Source of the DNA: Clostridia bacterium
Lineage (GTDB): Bacteria; Bacillota; Clostridia; Christensenellales; Aristaeellaceae
Assembly: GCA_030530315.1 (NCBI GenBank)
Contig: JAUMVG010000014.1
Span: forward strand, 1-56,435
Direction of reading: 5' to 3'
DNA: 56,435 nt
The notes beneath the pieces are model-generated. The model worked only from the letters and a program-made list of their open reading frames with translations. It had not been told where the DNA came from and searched no databases. The translations under genes were made by a program, and so were the position numbers. The first letter of the stretch is position 1; each line of letters opens with the position of its first letter. Shown here in pieces: positions 672 through 42,878 of this stretch.

Positions 672-765
672 TTCTGGTTCCTCCCTTGATGCTTATGTCG
701 GTTTCAAAGGTTGGAATCCGCTTTGGGATTCCACGCTTCGGCCCGATGCCGAAGCCGCGCCCCGG

Positions 766-1737
766 TTATTCGTCGCTGGTCTTGAGGGAGAGGCCCAGAG
801 CGATCAGCTTCTGCTCGACTTCCTCAAGGGACTTTTTGCCGAGGTTGCGCACCTTCATCATGTCCTCCTGATTGCGCTGAACCAGCTCGGCAACGGTGTT
901 GATGCCGGCGCGCTTCAGGCAGTTGAACGCACGGACGGAGAGGTCCAGTTCCTCGATGGTCATCTCAAGAACCTTGCTCTTGTCGTCGGTCTCCGGTTCG
1001 TTGTAATCGACGCGGACGACGTTCACGGTCAGGTCGATGAACAGGCGCATGTTATTGGTCAGGATCTGCGCGGCGGAAGCCAGGGCTTCCTTGGGCAGGA
1101 TGCTGCCATTGGTCCATACCTCGATGGTCAGCTTGTCATAGTCGGTGACCTGGCCCACACGGGTGTCCTCGACGGAATAACTGACCTTGCGGATGGGGGT
1201 GAATATGGAATCAACCGGGATCACGCCGATGGGCATTCCGGCGACCTTGTTGCGCTCCATTGCGAGCTGCTTGTTCCGCTCTGCAGAAACGTAGCCTCTT
1301 CCCTTCTCGAGGGTGATGGTCGCCTGCAGGTGACCGCCCTCGGAAAGCGTAGCGATGTGCAGTTCGGGGTTGACGATTTCAACTTCATCGTCCGCCTTGA
1401 TGTCGCCCGCGGTGATTTCGCAGGGACCATACGCATCGATGGAGACAGTCTTGGGCTGCTCCGTGAAGAGTTTCGCAGAGAGAAGCTTGATGTTAAGGAT
1501 CAGTTCCGCAACATCTTCCTTCATGCCGGGAACGGTCGAAAACTCATGCTGAACGCCCTCGATACGGACGCTTGTCGCGGCCACGCCCGGCAGCGAGTTC
1601 AGCAGCACGCGGCGCAGCGAATTGCCCAGCGTCTGGCCGAAGCCGCGCTCCAGCGGATTGACGACAAACTTGCCATAGCGATTGTTCTCGCCGACTTCCA
1701 CACGTTCAATTTTGGGCTTTTCGATTTGATCGATCAC
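766..1737 (-). CDS. rpoA: DNA-directed RNA polymerase alpha subunit
   Basis: This is the alpha subunit that nucleates assembly of RNA polymerase and contacts promoter UP elements and activators. At 323 aa it has the normal length. The N-terminal dimerisation domain (about residues 1-230) contains [20 protein letters not shown], and the C-terminal domain (about 250-315) contains the helix-hairpin-helix-type segment [14 protein letters not shown]. It lies between rpsD and rplQ, the standard alpha-operon position. The upstream gap of 125 bp to rpsD contains an inverted repeat (CCGCGG...CCGCGG) that could be a regulatory hairpin, but I cannot assign it. Confidence 0.98.
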
Positions 1738-1862
1738 TCAGCGTTTCCTCCTCTCCTGTCGCGAAAACGTGAAACCGTTTCCGCGGTGCTGCCTATGCCG
1801 CGGCGGGGAGCTTTGTATCCCTCCCGCGCGGCATACAGGCACTGTCTGCAAATGAACAGCAA

Positions 1863-2459
1863 TTAGCGGGAGTAGAGCTCGACGATCAGGTTTTCAGCAA
1901 CCTCATAGTCAATGTCTTCGCGGGACGGCAGCGCGGCGATCTTGCCCTCGAAGGCCTCGGGAGCCTTCTCGATCCACTGGGGAACGGTCTTCTTGCCGTA
2001 CTCCTCCAGCAGGGTCTTGAACTTCACGGAAGCCTGGGACTTCTGGCACACCGCCACCACGTCGCCGGCCTTGACCAGCGCGGAGGGGATGTTGCAGCGA
2101 CGGCCGTTCACGGTGAAGTGGCCATGGTTGACCAGCTGGCGCGCCTCGCGGCGGGTGCTGGCGAAGCCCATGCGGAACACGACGTTGTCCAGGCGGCGCT
2201 CCAGGTACTGGAGCATGATCTCGCCGGTGATGCCGCGCTTGCGCTCGGCCATCTCATAATAGTGATAAAACTGCTTTTCCAGCACGCCGTAGATGAACTT
2301 GACCTTCTGCTTCTCCATCAACTGCTTGCCGTATTCAGACTGCTTGCGACGCATCTGGGGCTTGGGGTTGCGATTGGTCTCCTTGGAGTAACCAAGCACC
2401 GCAGGAGACAGACCCAGCGCCTTGCATCTTTTCAGAACGGGCTGCGTATTCTTAGCCAT
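1863..2459 (-). CDS. rpsD: 30S ribosomal protein S4
   Basis: S4 is a primary 16S rRNA-binding protein needed for early assembly of the small subunit, and in many bacteria it represses its own operon. The 198 aa product shows the S4 N-terminal domain followed by the S4 RNA-binding fold (RRLDNVVFRMGFASTRREAR and LVNHGHFTVNGRRCNIPS). No zinc-binding cysteine cluster is seen at the N-terminus, so it is the Cys-free form. It lies 19 bp after rpsK and in the same direction. Confidence 0.97.
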   Translation of the reverse strand: MAKNTQPVLKRCKALGLSPAVLGYSKETNRNPKPQMRRKQSEYGKQLMEKQKVKFIYGVLEKQFYHYYEMAERKRGITGEIMLQYLERRLDNVVFRMGFASTRREARQLVNHGHFTVNGRRCNIPSALVKAGDVVAVCQKSQASVKFKTLLEEYGKKTVPQWIEKAPEAFEGKIAALPSREDIDYEVAENLIVELYSR

Positions 2460-2478
2460 GTCCGGTTTCTCCTTTCAA

Positions 2479-2877
2479 TTATACTCTTCTGCGCTTGGGC
2501 GGGCGGCATCCGTTGTGGGGGATGGGCGTCACGTCCTTGATCATGTTCACTTCCAGACCGGCGGCCTGCAGGGAACGGATGGCGGCCTCACGTCCGGAGC
2601 CGGGGCCCTTGACGTACACTTCGACGGTCTTCAGGCCATACTCCATGGCGGCCTTCGCGGCGGTCTCAGCAGCAGACTGGGCGGCAAAGGGCGTGGACTT
2701 CTTGCTGCCGCGGAAACCCAGTCCGCCAGCGGAAGCCCAGCTCAGCGCGTTGCCGGCGGTATCCGTGATGGTCACGATCGTATTGTTGAAAGAAGAGCGA
2801 ATATGGGCTGCGCCACGCTCCACGAGCTTCTTCTCGCGGCGCTTGCGGGTAACCCTTTTCAGCTTCGGCTTTGCCAT
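2479..2877 (-). CDS. rpsK: 30S ribosomal protein S11
   Basis: S11 lies on the platform of the small subunit near the mRNA exit. The 132 aa product has the typical core [21 protein letters not shown] and the C-terminal [17 protein letters not shown]. It follows rpsM in the usual alpha-operon order, with a 39 bp gap and a Shine-Dalgarno (GGGAGG) upstream. Confidence 0.97.
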
Positions 2878-2916
2878 AGCAAATATTCCTCCCTGATGTT
2901 ATCAGTTATCTGTGGA

Positions 2917-3288
2917 TTACTTCTTCTTCTTACCGGCAGCCTGCTTCTTCGGGCCCTTGCGGGTACGGGCATTCTGCTTGGTATTCTGGCCGCGCACAGG
3001 CAGGCCGCGACGATGGCGCAGGCCGCGGTAGCAGCCGATCTCCATCAGGCGCTTGATGTTCATGGAAACTTCGCGGCGCAGGTCGCCCTCTACCTTGACG
3101 TTGTGGTCAATGTAGTCGCGCAGCTTACCGATATCCTCTTCGGTTAGGTCCTTAACGCGGGTATCCGGGTTAACGCCCGTGGCCTCGATGATGTCGTCTG
3201 CGATGTTGCGGCCAATGCCGTAGATATACGTCAGGGCGATTTCGATGCGCTTCTCCCTGGGAAGGTCGACACCAGCAATTCGTGCCAT
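2917..3288 (-). CDS. rpsM: 30S ribosomal protein S13
   Basis: S13 forms part of the intersubunit bridge at the head of the small subunit. The frame stays open 22 codons further upstream, but the conserved N-terminus [19 protein letters not shown] begins at 3288, so that start was chosen (123 aa). The helix-two-turns-helix motif and the basic C-terminal tail ([20 protein letters not shown]) are present. It appears to be the first gene of a separate transcription unit, because an extended -10 promoter lies about 230 bp upstream and a hairpin separates it from rpmJ. Confidence 0.97.
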
Positions 3289-3517
3289 GTGTTGTTTGCA
3301 CCTCCAACATGCTTCTATGCGTTGTGTTGAAAACCGGCGATATTGCCCGTACATAGTTTGGGCAGCATCAGTCCCGCCCTTCGGCGGAACCGAAGGCCAT
3401 GCGGCCTCCGCCTGCGCCCGCGCGTCTGGCGTAACGCCCGGACAGATATTTGAAAGAATTTCGAAAAACGCACGGGTAAGTCGCGTCAGCCGCTCCGAAA
3501 TTCCGTCAGACTAAAAG

Positions 3518-30369: not shown

Positions 30370-32814
30370 ATGAAGACCCTTTCCCTGAACGGAACCTGGA
30401 CGCTGAACGTGATCTCCGAGGACGGCGCGCCGGTGTTCGCGGACGTGCCCGCGACGGTGCCCGGCTCGGTGTACCACGACCTGCTGACCGCCGGGAAGAT
30501 CCCCGATCCCTTCTGGCGGGACAACGAGAACGAAGCGCTGAAGCTGATGGAGCACCACTTCACCTATGCCCGCGCCTTTGAGGTCCCCGAGGCGCTGCTG
30601 GCCTGCGACCGCGTGCTGCTGCGCTGCGAGGGCCTGGACACGCTGGCGGACATCGCCGTGAACGGCATCCCCGCCGGCTCCGCCGACAACATGCACCGCA
30701 CCTGGGAGTTCGACGTCAAGGCCCTGCTGAGGCCCGGCGCGAACGAGATCTCCGTGGCGCTCCATTCCCCCACCCGCGCCATCCGCGCCGCCTACGCCGA
30801 GAGCCGCGCCGACGGCTCCAGCGACGCCATGACCGGCTTCCCGCTGCTGCGCAAGGCCCACTGCATGTTCGGCTGGGACTGGGGCCCGCGGCTCCCCGAC
30901 GCCGGCATCTGGCGGGACATCGCCCTCGTTGGCGTGGAGACCACCCGCATCCGGGACGTCTACGTCCGTCAGCGCCACACGTCGGGCCGGGTGACCTGTG
31001 AGATCGAGACCCGCACGGAAGACGCCCTCCCGGAGGGCCTGCGCATCGAAGCGTCGATCACCGCGCCGGACGGCGGGACCTTCACCGCCCTCGGCGAGCG
31101 CTGCGCCATCGAGATCGAAAACCCGCAGCTGTGGTGGCCCAACGGCTGGGGCAAGCAGCCGCTGTACACCGTAATCGTCCGCCTGATGGCGGGCGAGCGC
31201 GAGCTGGACCGCTGGCAGCGCCGGATCGGCCTGCGCACGCTGACCGTGCGCCGCGCGCCGGATGAGTGGGGCGAGAGCTTCTGCTTCTGCGCCAACGGCG
31301 TGGACATCTTCGCCATGGGCGCGGATTACATCCCCGAGGATAACCTGCTGCCCCGGGTGACCCCCGAGCGCACCCGTCGGCTGCTGGAGGACGCCGTCGC
31401 CGCCCACATGAACACCATCCGCGTCTGGGGCGGCGGCTACTACCCGGACGACTTCTTTTTCGACATCTGCGACGAGCTGGGCCTGATGGTCTGGCAGGAC
31501 TTCATGTTCGCCTGCGCCGTGTACAACCTGACCGACGCCTTTGAGGCGAACCTGCGCGCGGAGTTCGCGGACAACATCCGCCGCCTGCGCCACCACGCCT
31601 CCCTGGCCCTGTGGTGCGGCAACAACGAGATGGAGGGCTTCGTCGCCGCGGGCCTGTGGACCACCGACAAGCGCCAGACCGCCGACTACATCAAGATGTT
31701 CGAATACATACTGCCCCAGGTGCTGAAGGCCGAGGACCCCGACCGGTTCTACTGGCCCTCCAGCCCCTCCAGCGGCGGCAGCTTCGACGAACCCCAGGAC
31801 CCCAACCGGGGCGACGTGCACTACTGGGACGTCTGGCACGGCATGAAGCCCTTCACGGACTACCGCAATTATCTGTTCCGCTTCGCCTCGGAGTTCGGCT
31901 TCCAGGCCTTCCCCTGCATGGAGACCATCGAGGGCTTCACCCTGCCGGAGGACCGCAACGTGTTCTCCTACGTGATGGAGAAGCACCAGCGCAACGCCTC
32001 CGCCAACGGCAAGATCGCCGAATATCTGTCCCAGACCTACCTCTATCCCACCAGCTTCGATGCCTTCGTCTATGCCTCCCAGCTGCTCCAGGCCCAGGCC
32101 ATACAGTACGGTGTGGAGCACTGGCGCCGCAATCGGGGCCGCTGCATGGGCGCGGTGGTGTGGCAGCTGAACGACTGCTGGCCGGTGGTCAGCTGGGCCA
32201 GCGTCGACTACCACGGCCGCTGGAAGGCCCTGCACTACTATGAGAAGCGCTTCTTTGCCCCGGTGCTGATCTCCTGCTGCGAGGAGGGGATCCTCTCCCA
32301 GAACACCAACGTGAACGCCGAGCCCTTCCCGCTGAAGAAATCCGCCCGGCTGAACGTCAGCAACGAGACGCCCAACCCCTTCCGGGGCACCGTCCGCTGG
32401 TCGCTGCGCAGGCCGGACGCCTCCGTCCTGCGGGAGGGCAGCGCCGCCGTGGAGGTCCCCGCGCGCTCCGCACTGTGGCTGGACGAGCAGGACTTCTCCG
32501 ACGAGGACACCTACGGCTGCTACTTCGCCTACGCCCTGGAGGATGAAGGCGGCCACCCCGTCGGCAGTGGCTCCGTGCTGTTCTGCCCGCCGAAGCACTT
32601 CCGCTTCCAGGATCCGCGGCTCGAGGCCCGCGTCGAGGGCGACGAGATCGTCGTCACCGCCGGGGCCTACGCCCGCAGCGTGGAGCTGCGCTGCGGCGCC
32701 GACGTGCTGCTCGAGGACAACTTCTTCGACATGAACGCCGGGGAAAGGCGCGTGAAGGTGCTCCGCGGAACCCCCGGACAGGTCTCCGCCCGCAGCGTGT
32801 ACGACATAAGGTAA
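30370..32814 (+). CDS. Glycoside hydrolase family 2 beta-mannosidase
   Basis: The 814-aa product is a GH2 enzyme of the beta-mannosidase type, which removes mannose from the non-reducing end of mannan oligosaccharides or N-glycan cores. The N-terminal jelly-roll domain begins LSLNGTWTLNVISEDG and has FGWDWGPRLPDAGIWRDI, a beta-mannosidase hallmark. The TIM barrel shows RVWGGGYYPDDFFFDICDEL, the acid/base E420 in CGNNEMEGF and the nucleophile E508 in SEFGFQAFP. No signal peptide is seen, so it acts inside the cell on imported oligosaccharides. It stands alone between two hairpin clusters. Confidence 0.9.
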   Translation: MKTLSLNGTWTLNVISEDGAPVFADVPATVPGSVYHDLLTAGKIPDPFWRDNENEALKLMEHHFTYARAFEVPEALLACDRVLLRCEGLDTLADIAVNGIPAGSADNMHRTWEFDVKALLRPGANEISVALHSPTRAIRAAYAESRADGSSDAMTGFPLLRKAHCMFGWDWGPRLPDAGIWRDIALVGVETTRIRDVYVRQRHTSGRVTCEIETRTEDALPEGLRIEASITAPDGGTFTALGERCAIEIENPQLWWPNGWGKQPLYTVIVRLMAGERELDRWQRRIGLRTLTVRRAPDEWGESFCFCANGVDIFAMGADYIPEDNLLPRVTPERTRRLLEDAVAAHMNTIRVWGGGYYPDDFFFDICDELGLMVWQDFMFACAVYNLTDAFEANLRAEFADNIRRLRHHASLALWCGNNEMEGFVAAGLWTTDKRQTADYIKMFEYILPQVLKAEDPDRFYWPSSPSSGGSFDEPQDPNRGDVHYWDVWHGMKPFTDYRNYLFRFASEFGFQAFPCMETIEGFTLPEDRNVFSYVMEKHQRNASANGKIAEYLSQTYLYPTSFDAFVYASQLLQAQAIQYGVEHWRRNRGRCMGAVVWQLNDCWPVVSWASVDYHGRWKALHYYEKRFFAPVLISCCEEGILSQNTNVNAEPFPLKKSARLNVSNETPNPFRGTVRWSLRRPDASVLREGSAAVEVPARSALWLDEQDFSDEDTYGCYFAYALEDEGGHPVGSGSVLFCPPKHFRFQDPRLEARVEGDEIVVTAGAYARSVELRCGADVLLEDNFFDMNAGERRVKVLRGTPGQVSARSVYDIR

Positions 32815-32831
32815 CTCCTTCAAAACGATAG

Positions 32832-32864
32832 AAACGGCGCTGTCGCTCTCGCGGCAGCGCCGTC
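32832..32864. terminator. Terminator hairpin, copy 1 of a 33-bp direct repeat
   Basis: An inverted repeat (ACGGCGCTGTCGC / GCGGCAGCGCCGT) lies 18 bp after the GH2 stop. It is repeated with one change (32/33 identical) at 33083-33115. The stem ends in GTTT on the minus strand. Confidence 0.7.
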
Positions 32865-32893: not shown

Positions 32894-33079
32894 TGGGGAG
32901 GTTCTCAAACCGCCCCATTTCCAATCAGCGTTGGCGGCATGTACGTCAACGCTGCATTTTTCGGGAACAAACGCCTGCGTTTGTGGAGAAAAATGAGTAC
33001 CTGCCAGTCAGAAAATTCGTGTCGGCAGGCGCGAATTTTCGCGTCCCCCTCTCGCTGAAAAACTTTAGTTTTTCAGCGA
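32894..33079 (+). repeat. Cluster of five stem-loops flanked by the 33-bp repeats
   Basis: Between the two terminator copies lie: TGGGGAGGTT/AACCGCCCCA (32894-32917); AGCGTTG/CAACGCT (32927-32953, containing TTGGCGGCATGT); CATTTTTC/GAAAAATG with an inner ACAAACGC/GCGTTTGT (32955-32995); GAAAATTCG/CGAATTTTC (33011-33040) overlapping CTGCC/GGCAG; and a perfect 12-bp TCGCTGAAAAAC/GTTTTTCAGCGA (33052-33079). The 329-bp gap 32815-33143 has no gene. Confidence 0.65.
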
Positions 33080-33082
33080 TTC

Positions 33083-33115
33083 AAACGGCGCTGTCGCTCT
33101 CGCGACAGCGCCGTC
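33083..33115. terminator. Terminator hairpin, copy 2, after the peptide-binding protein gene
   Basis: A perfect 13-bp stem (ACGGCGCTGTCGC / GCGACAGCGCCGT) with a 4-nt loop lies 29 bp after the oppA stop on the minus strand. It is the second copy of the 33-bp repeat. Confidence 0.7.
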
Positions 33116-33143: not shown

Positions 33144-34808
33144 TTAGCGGCCGAACTGGCAGTCGTTGTTGCCGGATTCGGTGGTCCACATCTCCAGCAT
33201 GTTGATCGGGTCGTTGAAGTCAGCGATCCAGCCGTTGCGGGCGATGTCGTAGTTGCCGGCCTTGCGGTCATCCAGGAACACGTTCCAGTCGCAGGTGCGG
33301 ATGGTCATGGTGATGCCCACGGCCGCCAGGTCCTGCTGGATGCACTCGGCGATGGCCACGTGACCGGAGGACTCGTTGGTCAGGTACTCGAAGGAGATGG
33401 GGGTGTTGGCGGACAGCATCTCGCCGTCGAACTCAAAGCCCGCTTCCTTCAGCAGCTCGATGGCGCCCTCGACGTCCACATCGTAGCCGAAGTAGCCCAC
33501 GTTCTCCTCGTCCGGATAGGTGTAAGCATCGTCGTTGGCCTTGAACACGCCGCCCTGGCCGTCAGCCATGCCCTCGGGGATGAAGGCGTTGGCAGGCTTC
33601 TGCTCGCACTGGCCCACGGTCTCGATGATGTAGTCGCGGTCGACCAGCTTGGAGAAGGCCAGGCGCATGGCATTGGCCTGCTCCACGGTCTTGCCGTCGA
33701 ACAGGTGGGACTTCACGTTGAAGCACACATAGTAGGTGCCCAGGTTGTCGATGATGTGGAACTCCTCGGAGTCCTTCAGGTTCTGGATCTCATCGGTGGG
33801 AACGGAGTCGATGAAGTCCACGTCGCCGGCCTGATAGGCGGCATAGATGGCGGTGTCGTCAGCGGAGAGCATGAAGGTCAGCTTCTCGAGCTTGACGTTC
33901 TCGGCATCATAGTAGTTGGGGTTCTTGGTGTACACCATGGACTCGTTGTGGGTCCACTCGGTCAGGGTGAAGGGACCGGAGGTCACGAAGCCAGCCTCGT
34001 TCGCCCAGGCGCCGGGATTCTCTTCCCAACCCTCGACGGACTCGACGCAGGCCTGGTTCACGGCGTAGAATGCCGGGAACGCCATCAGGTCCAGCATGTA
34101 GGCGCAGGGAGCATCCAGCTCGACGGTCAGGGTGGTGCCATCCTCGGAGGCAGCCACGGCCAGGTCTTCCGGATAGCCCTTGATGCCGTTGAACATGTAG
34201 CTGTAGTCGGCGGCGGTCGCGGGGTTGGCGGCGCGCTTCCAGCTGTACTCAAAGTCCTTGGCGGTCAGGTCGCTGCCGTCGGACCACTTCAGGCCCTCAC
34301 GCATGGTGAAGGTGTAGGTCAGGCCGTCCTCGCTCATCTCGTAGCCGGTGGCGAAGTCGGGCTTCAGGTTGCCCTCGGCGTCATAGGTGTACAGGCCGCC
34401 GAAGGAGGCGATGGCCAGGCACGCGCCGTCCACGGAGCTGTTCAGGGCAGGATCCAGATGGTCCGGCTCGGAGGCCAGGTTCAGGCGCAGGGTGTCGGAG
34501 CCTTCCACGGTGGCATACTGGAAGAACTTGAAGCCGAACAGGTTGGCATAGATGCCGTCCACGGTGGGCTTCTGCATGTACAGATCGTTGTAGTAGTAGA
34601 TCGGCAGGATGGCGCCGGTGGACATCAGGATGTCCTCAGCCTCATGCATCTTGGCTTCGCGGGCGGCGAAGTCGGTCTCAGACTTGACCTCGGCGATCAG
34701 AGCGTTGTACGCGCTCCAGTCGGGCTCAGAGCCTTCATCCGCCATGGCGATGGCGGCGCAGGAGATGAGCATCATCATGGCCAGCAGCGCTGCAAGCAGC
34801 TTCTTCAT
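33144..34808 (-). CDS. oppA: Circularly permuted oligopeptide ABC transporter substrate-binding protein
   Basis: The 554-aa product belongs to the OppA/DppA peptide-binding family (SBP class C). It has a signal peptide of 23 residues with a possible lipobox (LISC). The order of the mature protein is permuted. Residues 24-103 (YNALIAEVKSETDFAAREAK, then AILPIYYYNDLYMQKPTVDG, FGFKFFQYA) match the last 70-80 residues of ordinary OppA. Residue 104 onward (TLRLNLASEPDHLDPALNSS, then LKWSDGSDLTAKDFEYSWKR) matches the ordinary N-terminus. The protein ends at MLEMWTTESGNNDCQFGR, exactly where an ordinary OppA would continue into the segment now found at the front. The N- and C-termini of this fold are in the same lobe, so the permuted protein could fold. 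It is the last gene of the oppBCDFA operon. No stop or frameshift is seen. Confidence 0.88.
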   Translation of the reverse strand: MKKLLAALLAMMMLISCAAIAMADEGSEPDWSAYNALIAEVKSETDFAAREAKMHEAEDILMSTGAILPIYYYNDLYMQKPTVDGIYANLFGFKFFQYATVEGSDTLRLNLASEPDHLDPALNSSVDGACLAIASFGGLYTYDAEGNLKPDFATGYEMSEDGLTYTFTMREGLKWSDGSDLTAKDFEYSWKRAANPATAADYSYMFNGIKGYPEDLAVAASEDGTTLTVELDAPCAYMLDLMAFPAFYAVNQACVESVEGWEENPGAWANEAGFVTSGPFTLTEWTHNESMVYTKNPNYYDAENVKLEKLTFMLSADDTAIYAAYQAGDVDFIDSVPTDEIQNLKDSEEFHIIDNLGTYYVCFNVKSHLFDGKTVEQANAMRLAFSKLVDRDYIIETVGQCEQKPANAFIPEGMADGQGGVFKANDDAYTYPDEENVGYFGYDVDVEGAIELLKEAGFEFDGEMLSANTPISFEYLTNESSGHVAIAECIQQDLAAVGITMTIRTCDWNVFLDDRKAGNYDIARNGWIADFNDPINMLEMWTTESGNNDCQFGR

Positions 34809-34840
34809 AGGGTGTCTTCCTCCTAAAAGATATTATCTGA

Positions 34841-34961: not shown

Positions 34962-35953
34962 TTACTCGTGGGCGTTCCAGCAGGCGATCTGGTGGCCCGG
35001 GGCGACCTCCCTCAGGCTGGGGCACTCCTGGGCACAGCGCTCGGTGGCGTAGCGGCACCGGGGCCGGAACGCGCAGCCGGAGGGCATGTTCAGCGGGCTG
35101 GGCACGTCGCCCTCCAGCGGGATGCGCTGGCGCGTGCGGGCGATCTTCGGATCCGGGATCGGAATGGCGGAGATCAGCGACTGGGTGTAGGGGTGCATCG
35201 GGTGGTCGATCACCTCGTCGGAATCGGCGATCTCCACGATGCGGCCCAGGTACATCACCGCGATGCGCTGGGAGATGTGCTGCACCACCAGCAGGTCGTG
35301 GGCGATGAACAGGTAGGCGATGCCCAGCTTCTTCTGCAGGTCCTCAAAGGTGTTGATGACCTGCGCCTGGATGGACACGTCCAGGGCAGACACGGGCTCG
35401 TCGCAGACGATGAACTTCGGGTTCACGGCCAGGGCGCGGGCGATGCCGATGCGCTGGCGCTGACCACCGGAGAATTCATGGGCATAGCGGCGGGCGTGGT
35501 CGGAGTTCAGGCCCACCAGGTTCAGAAGCTCGGTGATCCGCTCGGCGCGCTCCACCTTGGTGCTGTACAGCTTGTGGATGTCCAGCGGCTCACCCACGAT
35601 GTCGGAGACCGTCATGCGCGGGTTCAGCGAGGAGTAGGGATCCTGGAACACGATCTGCATTTCCTGGCGGAAATTCTTGATGTTCTGGGGCGTCACCTGG
35701 GTGCCGTTGTAGATGATCTCGCCGGAGGTGGGCTTGTACAGGTGCAGTATGGTGCGGCCCACGGTGGTCTTGCCGCAGCCGGATTCCCCTACCAGGCCCA
35801 GCGTCTCGCCGGGCTTGATGGCGAAGGACACGCCGTCCACCGCCTTCAGCGGCTTGCTGGTGAACCAGCCCGTGCGGATGGGAAAGTGCTGCTTCAGATT
35901 CCTGACCTCGAGCAGGTATCGCGAATCATTCGCTGTATTGCGGTTATCCATGG

Positions 35954-35957
<4 letters not shown>
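34962..35957 (-). CDS. oppF: Oligopeptide ABC transporter ATP-binding protein OppF
   Basis: The 331-aa protein is one of the two ATPases of the peptide importer. Walker A is GESGCGKTT, the signature is [15 protein letters not shown] and Walker B is [13 protein letters not shown]. The C-terminal oligopeptide/dipeptide extension has the Cys cluster [20 protein letters not shown] seen in such ATPases. Its ATG overlaps the oppD stop (ATGA). Confidence 0.95.
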
Positions 35958-37024
<1,067 letters not shown>

Positions 37025-37030
37025 CTCTTT

Positions 37031-38107
37031 TTACCTCCTCAGCTTGGGATCAAAGGCGTCGCGCAGGCCGTCGCCCAGCAGGTTGAAGCTCAGCACGATC
37101 AGGCAGATGAACAGCGCGGGGAACACCATTTTGTAGGGATAGCTCTGCATGCCGCCGCGGGCCGCGTTGGCGAGGGAGCCCAGGGAGGGCATCGGCGCCT
37201 GAACGCCCAGTCCGATGAAGGACAGGAAGCTCTCGGTGAAGATGGCCGAGGGGATCTGCAGCGCCACGGAGATGAAGATCACCGACATGCAGTTGGGCAG
37301 GATGTGCCGGCGGATGATGCGGCCGGGTTTGGCGCCCATGGCGCGGGCGGCCAGCACATACTCATTGGTTTTAATGGAAAGGATCTGGCCGCGGACCAGT
37401 CGGGCCATGCCCACCCAGTACAGCACGCCGAACACCACGAACAGCGAGATCATGTTGGTGCCCACCTTGGCCAGGGCCGTGCCCTGCAGGCTCGTGCCCA
37501 GCACCTGGGTCAGCACCACGCTCAGCAGAATGACCATCAGCGTGTCCGGCAGGGAGTAGATGATGTCGACGATGCGCATCATCACCATATCCACCTTGCC
37601 GCCGAAGTAGCCCGATATCGAGCCGTACAGCAAGCCTATCACCAGCACGATCAGGCTGGCGAACAGGCCCACCGCCAGGGACACCCTCGCGCCGTAGAGC
37701 ACGCGGATGAAGTAGTCGCGGCAGAGCTCGTCGGTGCCAAAGATGTGCGGGAAGATCTCCTGGCCCTCCTCGATGGCCTTCAGCTCGTTCTTGGAATAGG
37801 TGAAGGGCGCCAGGTTCTTGGCGGTCTTGTCGCGCTTGCCGTTCACGGTGATCATCTGCTCGTAGCTGTAGGGGTAGAACATCGGCACGATGATGATCGT
37901 CATCACCAGGCAGAACAGCACGACCAGGCTGATCATCGCCAGGGGATTCTTGCGCAGCTTGCGCATGCCGTCGCGGAAGAAGGTGGTGGACTCGCGCATG
38001 GTCTCATGCTGGGTCTTTTCCTCCTCGGTGGCCTTTTCAAACTTCTTCAGGTCGATCTGCAGGCTGAGGAATTGCTTCTTCGGCATAACGTCCGGATTAT
38101 TGCTCAT
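37031..38107 (-). CDS. oppC: Oligopeptide ABC transporter permease OppC
   Basis: The 358-aa product is an inner-membrane permease with six predicted membrane spans. A cytoplasmic N-terminal extension of about 60 charged residues precedes the first span, and an extracytoplasmic loop (FGTDELCRDYFIRVLYGARV) leads into the core. The coupling motif EYVLAARAMGAKPGRIIRRH is typical of OppC/DppC. It sits 15 bp after oppB. Confidence 0.94.
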   Translation of the reverse strand: MSNNPDVMPKKQFLSLQIDLKKFEKATEEEKTQHETMRESTTFFRDGMRKLRKNPLAMISLVVLFCLVMTIIIVPMFYPYSYEQMITVNGKRDKTAKNLAPFTYSKNELKAIEEGQEIFPHIFGTDELCRDYFIRVLYGARVSLAVGLFASLIVLVIGLLYGSISGYFGGKVDMVMMRIVDIIYSLPDTLMVILLSVVLTQVLGTSLQGTALAKVGTNMISLFVVFGVLYWVGMARLVRGQILSIKTNEYVLAARAMGAKPGRIIRRHILPNCMSVIFISVALQIPSAIFTESFLSFIGLGVQAPMPSLGSLANAARGGMQSYPYKMVFPALFICLIVLSFNLLGDGLRDAFDPKLRR

Positions 38108-38122
38108 GTCTCTTCCTCCTCC

Positions 38123-39034
38123 TCAGTCGAACGTAATCTTCGGGTCGACCAGCTTGTACACCATGTCGCTCACCAGCGTGGCCACGACCATCAGCACCGC
38201 CAGGAAGATCGTGGTGGCCATGATCATCGGGTAGTCCTGGTTGTTGATGGAGCGGACGAACTCGGTGCCCAGGCCGCCGATGGTGAACACCGTCTCCACC
38301 ACCATGGAACCGGTCAGGATGTAGGCCACCATCGGGCCGACGTAGGTGATCACGGGGATCAGCGCGTTCCTCAGCGCGTGCTTGAAGATCACCAAGCTGT
38401 CGCGCACGCCCTTGGCCCGGGCGGTGCGGATGTAGTCCTGCCCCAGCACGTCCAGCATGGAGGACTTGGTCAGCCTCGTGATGTAGCTCATCGGGTAGAG
38501 CATCAGCGAGATCACCGGCAGCACGTAGTTCGGGTTGTTGGCGGAGAACACGCCCACCCACTTCAGCGTCAGCGCGAACACCAGCAGCAGGATCGTCGCC
38601 AGTATGAAGCTGGGCACCGACACGAACAGCGTGGTCAGGAAGATGATCAGCCGGTCGGGCCAGCGGTTGCGGCACAGCGCCGCCACGGACCCCAGGATCA
38701 GCCCCAGCACGATGGCGAAGCCCGCCGCCATGCCGCCCAGCTTGGCCGACACCGCGAACTTCTCGGTGATGATCTGGGAGATGTCGCGCCCGGTCTTCAG
38801 CGAGATGCCGAAGTCCCCGTGCAACAGGTTCCCCAAGTAGATGACGAACTGCTGGGGCACGGGCTTGTCCAGGTTAAAGCGCGCCTCCAGCATCGCCTGA
38901 ACGGCGGGATCGGGCGCTTTTTCCTTGGAGAAGGGGCCGCCGGGAATGGCGTTCATCGCAAAGAACGTGATGGCAGAGATGATAAATACGGTGACCACTG
39001 CCAGCAGCACGCGCTTGACGGTATACTTCAGCAT
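38123..39034 (-). CDS. oppB: Oligopeptide ABC transporter permease OppB
   Basis: The 303-aa product is the first permease of the importer. It begins MLKYTVKRVLLAVVTVFIIS, the usual first span, contains ARFNLDKPVPQQFVIYLGNL and carries the coupling motif LGQDYIRTARAKGVRDSLVI. A longer frame upstream (to 39160) overlaps the promoter and was rejected. It is the first gene of oppBCDFA. Confidence 0.94.
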   Translation of the reverse strand: MLKYTVKRVLLAVVTVFIISAITFFAMNAIPGGPFSKEKAPDPAVQAMLEARFNLDKPVPQQFVIYLGNLLHGDFGISLKTGRDISQIITEKFAVSAKLGGMAAGFAIVLGLILGSVAALCRNRWPDRLIIFLTTLFVSVPSFILATILLLVFALTLKWVGVFSANNPNYVLPVISLMLYPMSYITRLTKSSMLDVLGQDYIRTARAKGVRDSLVIFKHALRNALIPVITYVGPMVAYILTGSMVVETVFTIGGLGTEFVRSINNQDYPMIMATTIFLAVLMVVATLVSDMVYKLVDPKITFD

Positions 39035-39140
39035 CAACAACAACCTCGCTTTGTTTAAAGGAATGCTCCCGGGGCATGCTTCGCGCCGCCGGCCCATTCC
39101 GTGAAACGCGACGCGTTCCACCTTTTTAACGCTGTCTTTC

Positions 39141-39169
39141 ATTATACCATAGTTGTTCACTAAAGTCTA
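39141..39169 (-). promoter_or_regulatory. Promoter of the opp operon
   Basis: On the minus strand TAGACT, 17 bp and TATAAT with an extended TGG. It diverges from the promoter at 39297. The 349-bp divergent gap 39035-39383 has no gene. Confidence 0.65.
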
Positions 39170-39325: not shown

Positions 39326-39383
39326 ATAGATGGTGATTTCGCGCGGTGTCAAGGCCGCGCCTTTAAATTGGAGGAACTGCCCC

Positions 39384-41375
39384 ATGCCCAACCTTTCCCT
39401 GCCCTTTCTCGGCCACGGCGGCGACTACAACCCGGACCAGTGGCTGGACCGCCCCGACATCCTGGAGGAGGACATCCGCCTGATGAAGCTGGCCGGCTGC
39501 AACCTGATGAGCGTCGGCATATTCGCCTGGTCGGCCCTGGAGCCCGAGGAGGGCGTCTACGACTTCGACTGGCTGGAGGCCGTGCTGGGCCGGCTCCACG
39601 CGGCCGGCATCTCCGCCTTCCTGGCTACGCCCAGCGGCGCGCGCCCGGCCTGGATGAGCCAGAAGTACCCGGAGGTACTCCGGGTGCGGCCCGACGGCGG
39701 CCGGAACCTCCACGGGGGGCGGCACAACCACTGCTTCACCTCGCCCGTCTACCGGGGCTTCGTCCGCCGGATGAACGCGGCCCTGGCGGCGCGCTTCGGC
39801 CGCCACCCCGCGGTGGTGGGCTGGCATATCTCCAACGAGTACAGCGGCGAGTGCCACTGCGAGCTGTGCCAGCAGGCCTTCCGGGACTGGCTCAGGGACC
39901 GCTACGGCACGCTGGACGCCCTGAACCATGCCTGGTGGACCGGCTTCTGGAGCAAGAGGTACACCGACTGGAGCCAGCTGCACAGCCCCTCCCCCGTCGG
40001 CGAAACCGCGGTCCACGGCCTGAACCTGGCCTGGAAGCGGTTCGTCACCCACCAGACCGCCGACTTCATCCGCGCCGAGACGGCCCCGCTGCGCGAGGCC
40101 GCGCCGCAGCTGCCGGTGACCACCAACCTGATGGAGTTCTTCGAGCCGCTGAACTATTTCGAGCTGTCGAAGGCGCTGGATTTCGCCAGCTACGACAGCT
40201 ATCCCCGCTGGGGCGGCCCGGACGAAGCGCAGGTCGCCGTCGGGGCGGCCTTCAACTACGACGTGATGCGCAGCCTGAAGCAAAAGCCCTTCGCCCTGAT
40301 GGAGTCCACCCCCTCCCAGGTGAACTGGCAGCCGGTGTGCAAGCTGAAAAAGCCCGGCATGCACCTGCTGTCCAGCCTGCAGGCGGTGGCCCACGGCGCG
40401 GACACCGTGCAGTACTTCCAGTGGCGCAAGAGCCGGGGCTGCGCCGAAAAGTTCCACGGTGCGGTGGTGGACCACGTGGGCCACGAGCACACCCGCACCT
40501 TCCGGGACGTGCAGGACGTGGGCGAGGCGCTGCAAAGGCTGAACGGCCTGCAGGGCTCCATGCCCGGCGCGAAGGTGGCGCTGATCTGCGACACCGAAAA
40601 CCGCTGGGCGCTGGAGGACTGCCAGGGGCCCCGGGACGACCTGAAATACCTGGACACCGTGCTGGAGCACTACGCCGCCCTCTTGCGCCGGGGCGTGGAC
40701 GTGGACGTGATCGACGAGACCCGGGACTTCTCCGGCTACCGGCTGATCGCCGCGCCGATGCTCTACATGCTCCGCCCCGGCGTCGCCGAGCGGCTGACCG
40801 AATTCGCCCGCGGCGGCGGCACGCTGGTGTGCACCGCATACACCGGCCGGGTGGACCAGGACGACCTGTGCTTCCTGGGCGGCTTCCCCGGCCCGCTGCG
40901 GGAGGTGCTGGGCGTCTGGATCGAGGAGACCGACGGCCTGTACGACGGCGAGACCAACGGCATCCGCATGGACGGCGCGGTCTACGCCTGCTCCACGCTG
41001 TGCGACCTGATCCACGCCGAGACCGCCCGGGTGGTGGGCACCTACGAGAAGGACTTCTACGCCGGCCGGCCCTGCGTCACCCGCAACGACTTCGGCGGCG
41101 GCGCGGCCTGGTACGTCGCCACCCGACCGGACGCCGCCTTCCTGGACGCCTTCTACCGCGCGGCGCTGGAGAACGCCGGCGTGGCTCCGCTGCTGCCGGA
41201 GCTGCCCCTGGGCGTGCAGGCCGCCAGCCGGGGCGATGTGCTGTTCGTGATGAACTTCAGCGGAAAACCCGCTTCGGTGACGCTGCCCGAGGGCACCGAC
41301 ATCCTCACCGGCAAGCCCGTCGGCGGCGAAACGGCGCTGCCCGTCAACGGCATCGCCGTCGTCGCCCGAAAATAG
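39384..41375 (+). CDS. Glycoside hydrolase family 42 beta-galactosidase
   Basis: This retaining GH42 enzyme removes beta-galactose, often from plant galactan or arabinogalactan oligomers. The start MPNLSLPFLGHGGDYNPDQW is typical; the frame is open 18 codons upstream without support. The 663-aa product has the (beta/alpha)8 barrel with acid/base E152 in the ISNEYSGECHCELC segment, whose cysteines form the GH42 zinc site, and nucleophile E307 in ALMESTPSQVNWQ. A trimerisation domain and a C-terminal beta domain follow. No signal peptide is seen. The GH51 gene lies 39 bp downstream. Confidence 0.93.
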   Translation: MPNLSLPFLGHGGDYNPDQWLDRPDILEEDIRLMKLAGCNLMSVGIFAWSALEPEEGVYDFDWLEAVLGRLHAAGISAFLATPSGARPAWMSQKYPEVLRVRPDGGRNLHGGRHNHCFTSPVYRGFVRRMNAALAARFGRHPAVVGWHISNEYSGECHCELCQQAFRDWLRDRYGTLDALNHAWWTGFWSKRYTDWSQLHSPSPVGETAVHGLNLAWKRFVTHQTADFIRAETAPLREAAPQLPVTTNLMEFFEPLNYFELSKALDFASYDSYPRWGGPDEAQVAVGAAFNYDVMRSLKQKPFALMESTPSQVNWQPVCKLKKPGMHLLSSLQAVAHGADTVQYFQWRKSRGCAEKFHGAVVDHVGHEHTRTFRDVQDVGEALQRLNGLQGSMPGAKVALICDTENRWALEDCQGPRDDLKYLDTVLEHYAALLRRGVDVDVIDETRDFSGYRLIAAPMLYMLRPGVAERLTEFARGGGTLVCTAYTGRVDQDDLCFLGGFPGPLREVLGVWIEETDGLYDGETNGIRMDGAVYACSTLCDLIHAETARVVGTYEKDFYAGRPCVTRNDFGGGAAWYVATRPDAAFLDAFYRAALENAGVAPLLPELPLGVQAASRGDVLFVMNFSGKPASVTLPEGTDILTGKPVGGETALPVNGIAVVARK

Positions 41376-41414: not shown

Positions 41415-42878
41415 ATGAACCGCATCACCGTGAACCCCGATCGCAGCATCGGCGTCATCAACCGCAACCTCTACGGCCACTTCTCCGAGCACCTGGGCCG
41501 CTGCGTCTACGGCGGCCTCTACGTGGGCGAGGACAGCCCCATCCCCAACGTCAACGGCATGCGCACGGACGTGGTGGAGGCCCTGAAGGCCATCCGCGTT
41601 CCGGTACTGCGCTGGCCGGGCGGGTGCTTCGCCGACGAATACCACTGGCAGGACGGCATCGGCCCTCGGGAGAACCGCAAGCGCATGGTCAACACCAACT
41701 GGGGCCACGTGGTGGAGGACAATTCCTTCGGCACCCACGAGTTCCTGGAGCTGTGCCGCCAGCTGGGCTGCGCGCCCTACATCACCGCCAACGTGGGCTC
41801 CGGCACCGTGCGGGAGATGGCCGAGTGGGTGGAATACCTGAACAGCCCCGGCGACTCCACCGTGGTGCGCCAGCGCTGGGCCAACGGCCACAGGGAGCCC
41901 TGGGGCGTGAAATTCTGGGGCGTGGGCAACGAGAGCTGGGGCTGCGGCGGCAACATGCGGCCCGAGTACTACGCCGACGAATACCGGCGCTACCAGACCT
42001 ATTGCCGGGACTACCCCGGCACGAAGCTGTACCGCATCGCCTGCGGCCCGAACACCGACGACTACGAGTGGACCCGGGTGCTGATGGAGCGGGCGGGCAA
42101 GTTCATGGACGGCCTCAGCCTGCACTACTACACCACCACCGGCCCCACCTGGGAAGAGAAAGGCACGGCGCTCCGCTTCACCAAATCCGAGTATTACGAG
42201 CTGCTGAGCAACGCCGCCCGCATGGAAGAGTTCGTCGTCCGCCACGGGCAGATCATGGACCATTTCGACCCCGAAAAGCGGATCGGCCTGATCGTGGACG
42301 AGTGGGGCACCTGGCACCAGGTGGAGGCGGGCACCAACCCCGGCTTCCTGTACCAGCAGAACGCCATGCGGGACGCGCTGGTGGCGGCCATCCACCTGAA
42401 CCTGTTCAACCGCCACTGTGACCGCGTGGCCATGGCAAACCTGGCCCAGACGGTAAACGTGCTCCAGTCGGTGGTCCTCACCGAGGGCGAGCGCATGCTG
42501 CTCACCCCCACCTGGCACGTGTTCGACCTGTTCAAGGCCCACCAGGACGCCCGGGCCGTGGACTGCTTCGTGGAGACCGACGCCGTCGGCGAGGGCAAAT
42601 GGCGCATCGACCGCCTCACCGCCTCCGCCTCCGAGAAGGACGGCGTCCTGACTGTGACCGTCGCCAACTGCTCGATGGACAGCGCCGCGGACCTCGTCCT
42701 GCGCTCGCCCCACACCGGGAAGGTCAGCGGCCGGATCCTGGCCGGCGCGCCGGACGCTCACAACACCTTCGACGCCAGCCCGGTGGCCTCCGCGCCCTTC
42801 ACCGACTTCACCGCCGACCCCCACGGCATCTCGCTGTCCCTGCCCCCGTGCAGCGTGCTGGCGCTGACCCTGGCATGA
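41415..42878 (+). CDS. abfA: Glycoside hydrolase family 51 alpha-L-arabinofuranosidase
   Basis: This GH51 enzyme releases arabinose from arabinan, arabinoxylan or arabinogalactan fragments. The 487-aa product starts with the [20 protein letters not shown] region and has [20 protein letters not shown]. The acid/base is E173 in [10 protein letters not shown] and the nucleophile is E296 in [10 protein letters not shown]. It is intracellular. It shares an operon with the GH42 gene, so the pair probably handles arabinogalactan-type side chains. Confidence 0.95.

Follow-up and report, generated by a model that had tools for sequence, protein, structure and literature searches.

A probable circularly permuted oligopeptide-binding protein at the end of a clostridial oppBCDF-A operon, and signs of recurrent permutation in related operons

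Natural circular permutants such as concanavalin A and the swaposins, for which a duplication and deletion route has been proposed, are known in general, and a family typically shows just one such permutation, of old date. Here we describe an open reading frame at positions 33144..34808, on the minus strand, of a 56,435-nucleotide stretch of Clostridia bacterium DNA (assembly GCA_030530315.1, contig JAUMVG010000014.1, positions 1 to 56,435; hereafter the window). It encodes a circularly permuted OppA-type substrate-binding protein (SBP) of 554 residues and is the last gene of an oppBCDF-A operon, whose oppB, oppC, oppD and oppF genes (34962-39160) precede it in the same orientation. As in concanavalin A and the swaposins, which have other folds, the order of the pieces is changed and the pieces are kept; unlike in those cases, one transporter family seems to have been permuted several times and at different points, and this recurrence is the surprise.

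In OppA, according to PMC6305025, domain I consists of residues 1-44, 189-269 and 487-517, domain II of residues 45-188 and domain III of residues 270-486, while PMC11192437 assigns domains I and II of related proteins to lobe 1 and domain III to lobe 2. The normal N- and C-termini of OppA both lie in domain I. Compared with Bacillus subtilis OppA (8are, 8arn), in which the segment 457-520 comes last, the window protein carries this segment first and has its new termini in domain III.

The window protein is composed of a signal peptide, the last ~65 residues of OppA and then the first ~435, each present once. An earlier note on this DNA had claimed that the last OppA segment precedes the first, and the phmmer alignments to 8are and to DppE (8ay0) bear this out: protein residues 102-550 align with OppA (8are) 17-450 and residues 34-97 with OppA 457-520, so that the tail stands ahead of the head instead of following head and middle. 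DppE gives the same swapped order, its second stretch alone reaching an E-value of 2.4e-7, and MppA gives the same picture; the short moved tail alone against 8are is weak (E 0.13). That every piece occurs once, as also proposed, agrees with phmmer and with a tblastn search of window positions 30-40 kb using permuted and normal-order queries, in which the permuted frame was the sole SBP match and no second tail was found after the stop codon. The junction placed by the earlier note at 34499/34500 and the protein end TTESGNNDCQFGR are both correct, the new C-terminus reading GNNDCQFGR. The Pfam family SBP_bac_5 (PF00496; 283.2 bits against a cut-off of 32.4) covers only residues 148-548, and the NCBIfam OppA equivalog (NF011684, PRK15104), at 214.3 bits and under its curated cut-off of 947, aligns only to residues 106-551; ordinary annotation therefore hides the permutation.

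An AlphaFold2 model of the window protein, a step that the earlier note had proposed, is confident over the whole chain (predicted local distance difference test score (pLDDT) 90.9; predicted template modelling score 0.87) and shows the three-domain fold of family 5 SBPs, with the signal peptide as a helix at residues 2-21 and pLDDT values under 50 at residues 16-24. With residue order kept, the match of the model to 8are has a TM-score of 0.67. No solved structure of the permuted form was found: the profile matched 26 PDB sequences at E 1e-30, and in none of them does the best stretch start before position 104.

The permuted order, with the cut at about 8are 453/457 inside domain III (type 1), is widespread and is shared by dozens of bacterial species. 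A scan of genome contigs gave 335 relatives; at the best 80 loci, which were kept, hidden Markov models of tail and core gave the architecture tail-core at 76 loci, tail-core with an internal gap at one (L058), tail-core-tail-core at two (L089, L092) and core only at one (L070), which starts at base 2 of its contig, that is, inside the gene. Thus, 79/80 loci on other contigs keep the permuted order, and both the joint and the protein end are conserved. By record label only, type 1 loci belong to Lachnospiraceae, Oscillospiraceae, Christensenellaceae and Proteiniclasticum, with four metagenome-assembled genomes labelled Chloroflexi or Anaerolineaceae; two records are labelled as strains, and one genome (G051) has the gene on a 3.97-Mb contig. 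Taken together, the sequence, the whole-chain model and the 79/80 loci support a real, complete and conserved circular permutation.

Searches of larger genome sets, in which the best two to four candidates per genome were scored and the counts are lower bounds, place this form in its taxonomic context; the 80 loci and the genomes searched here overlap, and the two counts are not independent. Within the genus, an SBP match was present in 28/28 genomes, and 13 besides the window's own gave a single match running from residue 1 or 23 to residue 554. A doubled normal-order query tells permuted from normal order by the start of the alignment, and among the matches listed from 300 genomes of the window's family, 54 genomes had a permuted start (483-502) and 29, the source of the query included, had a close normal-order protein (68-100% identical, start 3-4 or 551-563). 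With the best two candidates per genome scored, no genome carried both forms against about five expected (probability of finding none, 0.0026 for 53 permuted genomes and 0.0023 for 54), as if either form could fill the one role. In the order sample, nine of 297 genomes were type 1 by full-length match or architecture, five of them from the window's own family, its own genome included; the class sample gave 3/391 at E 1e-160, and the phylum sample gave the window's own genome alone among 398 at E 1e-100. Twenty plasmid records matched, and none of the eight among the matches listed extends into the moved tail.

Beyond type 1, three more SBPs, likewise encoded after opp genes, are permuted, each at a different point and each in one genome. 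Type 2 (L174/L197, G614:C58; L197 at 1526-3346, minus strand) opens before AEIRQAIGLLFDRNYI and ends with GTYYICWNINEDLRVW; type 3 (L192/L249, G310:C32; L192 at 1342-3120, minus strand) opens before PTLKYLYNTSDAHK and aligns in a single piece to positions 377-931 of the doubled normal-order query, with 66% identity and 820 bits; and type 4 (L193/L250, G504:C16; L193 at 763-2619, minus strand) opens inside the tail before IAPLYFYTNKY and is 62% identical to the normal-order protein L241. By tblastn with a normal relative, about two query residues are missing at the cut of type 2 and about 10 at that of type 3. All three genes have opp genes as neighbours and come after OppF; the contig of type 2 stops before oppB. 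On PDB chains, the cuts fall near DppE 285/292 (type 2), at OppA 8are 340-369 (type 3) and at OppA 8are 483-489 (type 4), so that all four types appear to lie in domain III, with the conversion to domains being approximate, as 8are and Escherichia coli OppA are offset by 8-11 residues. Four of four cuts in a domain that makes up 42% of the chain would arise by chance with a probability of about 0.03, a weak figure from an unplanned sample. No second genome was found for types 2-4 in the searches made (one genome; 1/5; 1/18) or among the matches listed from the 300 family genomes, and an assembly artefact is possible for these three types.

Normal-order genes occupy the same place as the permuted one, being encoded behind OppF in 21/22 distinct genes tested, L198 included among the 22. 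The normal-order sister proteins L131-L137, L139 and L140 are 43-49% identical to the window core, and normal-order sisters have about 28 extra residues between core and tail. For phylogenetic analysis, the protein pieces were put into one common order. A first tree held 99 of 169 distinct SBPs after identity thinning, with type 4 excluded by the tail cut-off; a careful tree held 55 rows (35/37 type 1, 18/60 normal-order, plus types 2 and 3), and a quick tree held 10/37 type 1 and 55/60 normal-order rows, with type 4 added; both left out seven long or atypical rows. Types 2 and 3 stand at separate places among the normal-order sister proteins in the first and careful trees, and type 4 falls within yet another normal-order group in the quick tree (support 100). 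Whatever the tree says, the difference in cut points speaks for separate permutation events. Type 1 forms one clade with the normal-order protein L198 in the careful tree (100/100).

L198/L181 (G1255:C7; 5494-7248, plus strand) has the normal order and the same operon position, and its identity with type 1 proteins reaches 64%; its place inside the permuted clade suggests that it may have reverted from the permuted to the normal order. A plausible rival, which we hold to be somewhat the less credible account of L198, is that it never lost the ancestral order and is a neighbour of type 1 in the tree, with no reversion, and the approximately unbiased (AU) test leaves room for this, a type 1 clade that excludes L198 being unrejected (p 0.307). 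Such a clade, however, appeared in 0/200 bootstrap trees, L198 grouped with two Lachnospiraceae type 1 rows in the quick tree (support 96), and its internal linker NSSAPSWKEYD resembles, by eye, the linker at the front of permuted proteins from Lachnospiraceae, for example RSSDAAPEWQEYN of L108.

We propose that a short link joined the former N- and C-termini, which both lie in domain I, and that the new opening is in domain III, after the stretch ending GNND.QFGR and before the helix beginning PDW..Y..LI, the permuted chain presumably folding to the normal OppA shape. Since the signal peptide stays in front while the cut lies in domain III, the anchored end shifts from lobe 1 to lobe 2, and domain III would now carry the signal peptide together with whatever lipid or membrane anchor there is. 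This arrangement would have arisen when the mature part was duplicated in tandem and in frame and the outer ends were then lost, with the same kind of event at three other places of domain III in related operons, and trimming of a fused double could also restore the normal order, as may have happened in L198. A route by duplication and trimming predicts tandem copies and fused doubles, and both occur. Tandem copies of the permuted gene were found at L201 (6003-9676, G023), where both are intact, at L202 (G011), where one is cut by the contig end, and at L203 (5081-5673, G006), where the second is broken into pieces. Meanwhile, L089 (3607-7593, 1329 residues) and L092 (5560-9480, 1307 residues), from records labelled Chloroflexi and Anaerolineaceae, are single open frames with two permuted units head to tail and Ala/Glu/Val-rich linkers. 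Apart from these tandem copies and fused doubles, tblastn of 15 regions around type 1-4 genes found neither a second tail behind the stop codon nor leftover gene pieces.

We are confident that the window gene encodes a circularly permuted SBP of the adjacent OppBCDF importer. The broader proposal, that the oppBCDF-A binding proteins of Clostridia and kin underwent at least four permutations at four cut points, always in domain III, one of them widely successful and one perhaps reverted, as a convergent re-tethering of a Venus-flytrap receptor by duplication, fusion and trimming at the operon end, is a tentative one, with our doubts slightly outweighing our belief. In a transporter component with a large and mobile two-lobe fold, a well-populated permuted clade, its un-permuted relatives, fused doubles that resemble the intermediate to be expected and three further cuts make the steps of permutation comparable and testable in living sequences. 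Transporter mechanism gains natural variants whose tether would sit on the other lobe, and evolution, as this suggests, can switch which half of a binding protein is tied to the cell. Three points go beyond the earlier note: the permuted order is widespread, related operons have other cut points, and the new termini sit in domain III, not in the lobe with the normal termini. That note knew of no described natural permutation in this family, and our search of the open-licence literature likewise found no report of one in SBPs; subscription papers were outside its scope, so a prior mention is possible.

Several observations weigh against these readings. In the model, residues 541-554, the last 14 and the new C-terminal end, have pLDDT values of only 57-62, and VIA-align matched the model only from residue 98 on, which leaves the moved tail, presumed to sit where the OppA tail does, outside the match. 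Types 2-4 rest on one genome each, and the permuted form is rare outside the window's family in the samples searched. Besides the AU result on L198, that test also leaves types 2 and 3 together unrejected (p 0.108). Finally, the window neighbours of the opp operon are glycoside hydrolases.

This last point bears on the substrate, for which peptide import is our best guess from sequence. The SBP motif GW.ADF.DP is kept in the window protein with its Asp, which is aligned with the same Asp in 8are and MppA, and both D530 and W527 are invariant in the 50 rows of alignment A1. The Asp of OppA aligned with D530 contacts the peptide N-terminus, and in the window protein peptides would be bound in the usual cleft, D530 included, and then handed to OppBC. 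Some family-5 SBPs bind oligosaccharides, and a non-peptide substrate such as an oligosaccharide, unlikely in our judgement, would fit the GH2/mannosidase, GH42 and arabinofuranosidase genes that flank the window operon and the GH120-domain gene near L121, one of five other loci viewed. Against it, the transporter genes of the window find their best matches in Opp and Dpp models, OppA and DppE are its closest relatives of solved structure, and the Asp motif is conserved; the flanking genes picked at the other four loci encode an asparaginase and an M24 peptidase (L098), a PfkB kinase (L102), SpoIVA (L112) and a histidine kinase (L120). As a guide to the substrate, neighbour genes thus give a mixed picture and no verdict.

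Domain swapping, in which the front tail packs into a neighbouring molecule and a dimer or a chain of proteins does the work, is a decidedly improbable alternative to a self-contained permuted monomer: PMC11192437 describes the relative AliC as a lobe-swapped dimer, and fused doubles occur, but the single-chain model is confident and the tail-head link of only about five residues suits an intramolecular join. An assembly chimera or frame artefact of a draft genome of 144 contigs with 6.11% estimated contamination is, for type 1, rejected as practically negligible, since the order, joint and end recur at the 79/80 loci on other contigs, which answers the concern about a chimera raised in the earlier note.

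Table 1. Features of the permuted gene and its surroundings in the window.
Feature	Position	Strand	Basis
Whole open reading frame, permuted oligopeptide-binding protein, 554 residues plus stop; start codon at 34808, stop 33144-33146	33144..34808	-	sequence, phmmer
AGGAGG, putative ribosome-binding site, about 10 nt ahead of ATG	34819..34824	-	read from sequence
Signal peptide, residues 1-23 (MKKLLAALLAMMMLISCAAIAMA), cleavage site inferred	34740..34808	-	sequence; model helix 2-21
OppA C-terminal segment now at front, residues 34-97 (= 8are residues 457-520)	34518..34709	-	phmmer
Short link, residues 98-103, old C-terminus to old N-terminus	34500..34517	-	alignments
OppA N-terminal and middle part, residues 104-554 (about 8are 18-453)	33147..34499	-	phmmer, structure alignment; Pfam SBP_bac_5 148-548
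RNGWIADFNDP, residues 524-534, including D530	33207..33239	-	alignment
Terminator-like palindrome downstream of the gene, putative terminator	33077..33115	-	sequence
oppF, ATPase	34962..35957	-	profile match
oppD, ATPase	35954..37024	-	profile match
oppC, permease	37031..38107	-	profile match
oppB, permease	38123..39160	-	Pfam BPD_transp_1
Glycoside hydrolase-domain genes (GH2/mannosidase, GH42, arabinofuranosidase) flanking the opp operon	30370-32814, 39330-41375, 41415-42878	+	domain matches

The window signal peptide contains LISC, followed by hydrophobic residues and then AMA|DEG. Among 72 relatives, a simple pattern, with starts set by a simple rule, gave a lipobox in 33, an AxA site in 35 and neither in four, and the tail segment starts between residues 29 and 232. 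Two permuted SBPs, L117 (5752-7599) and L146 (964-2961), have a front stalk made of an apparent membrane helix and a coiled-coil-like stretch, and a third, L096 (5311-7599), has a lipobox and about 200 residues of repeats at the front. A 92% copy of the palindrome that follows the window gene lies at 32826-32864, both copies standing in the stretch that separates the mannosidase gene from the permuted one.
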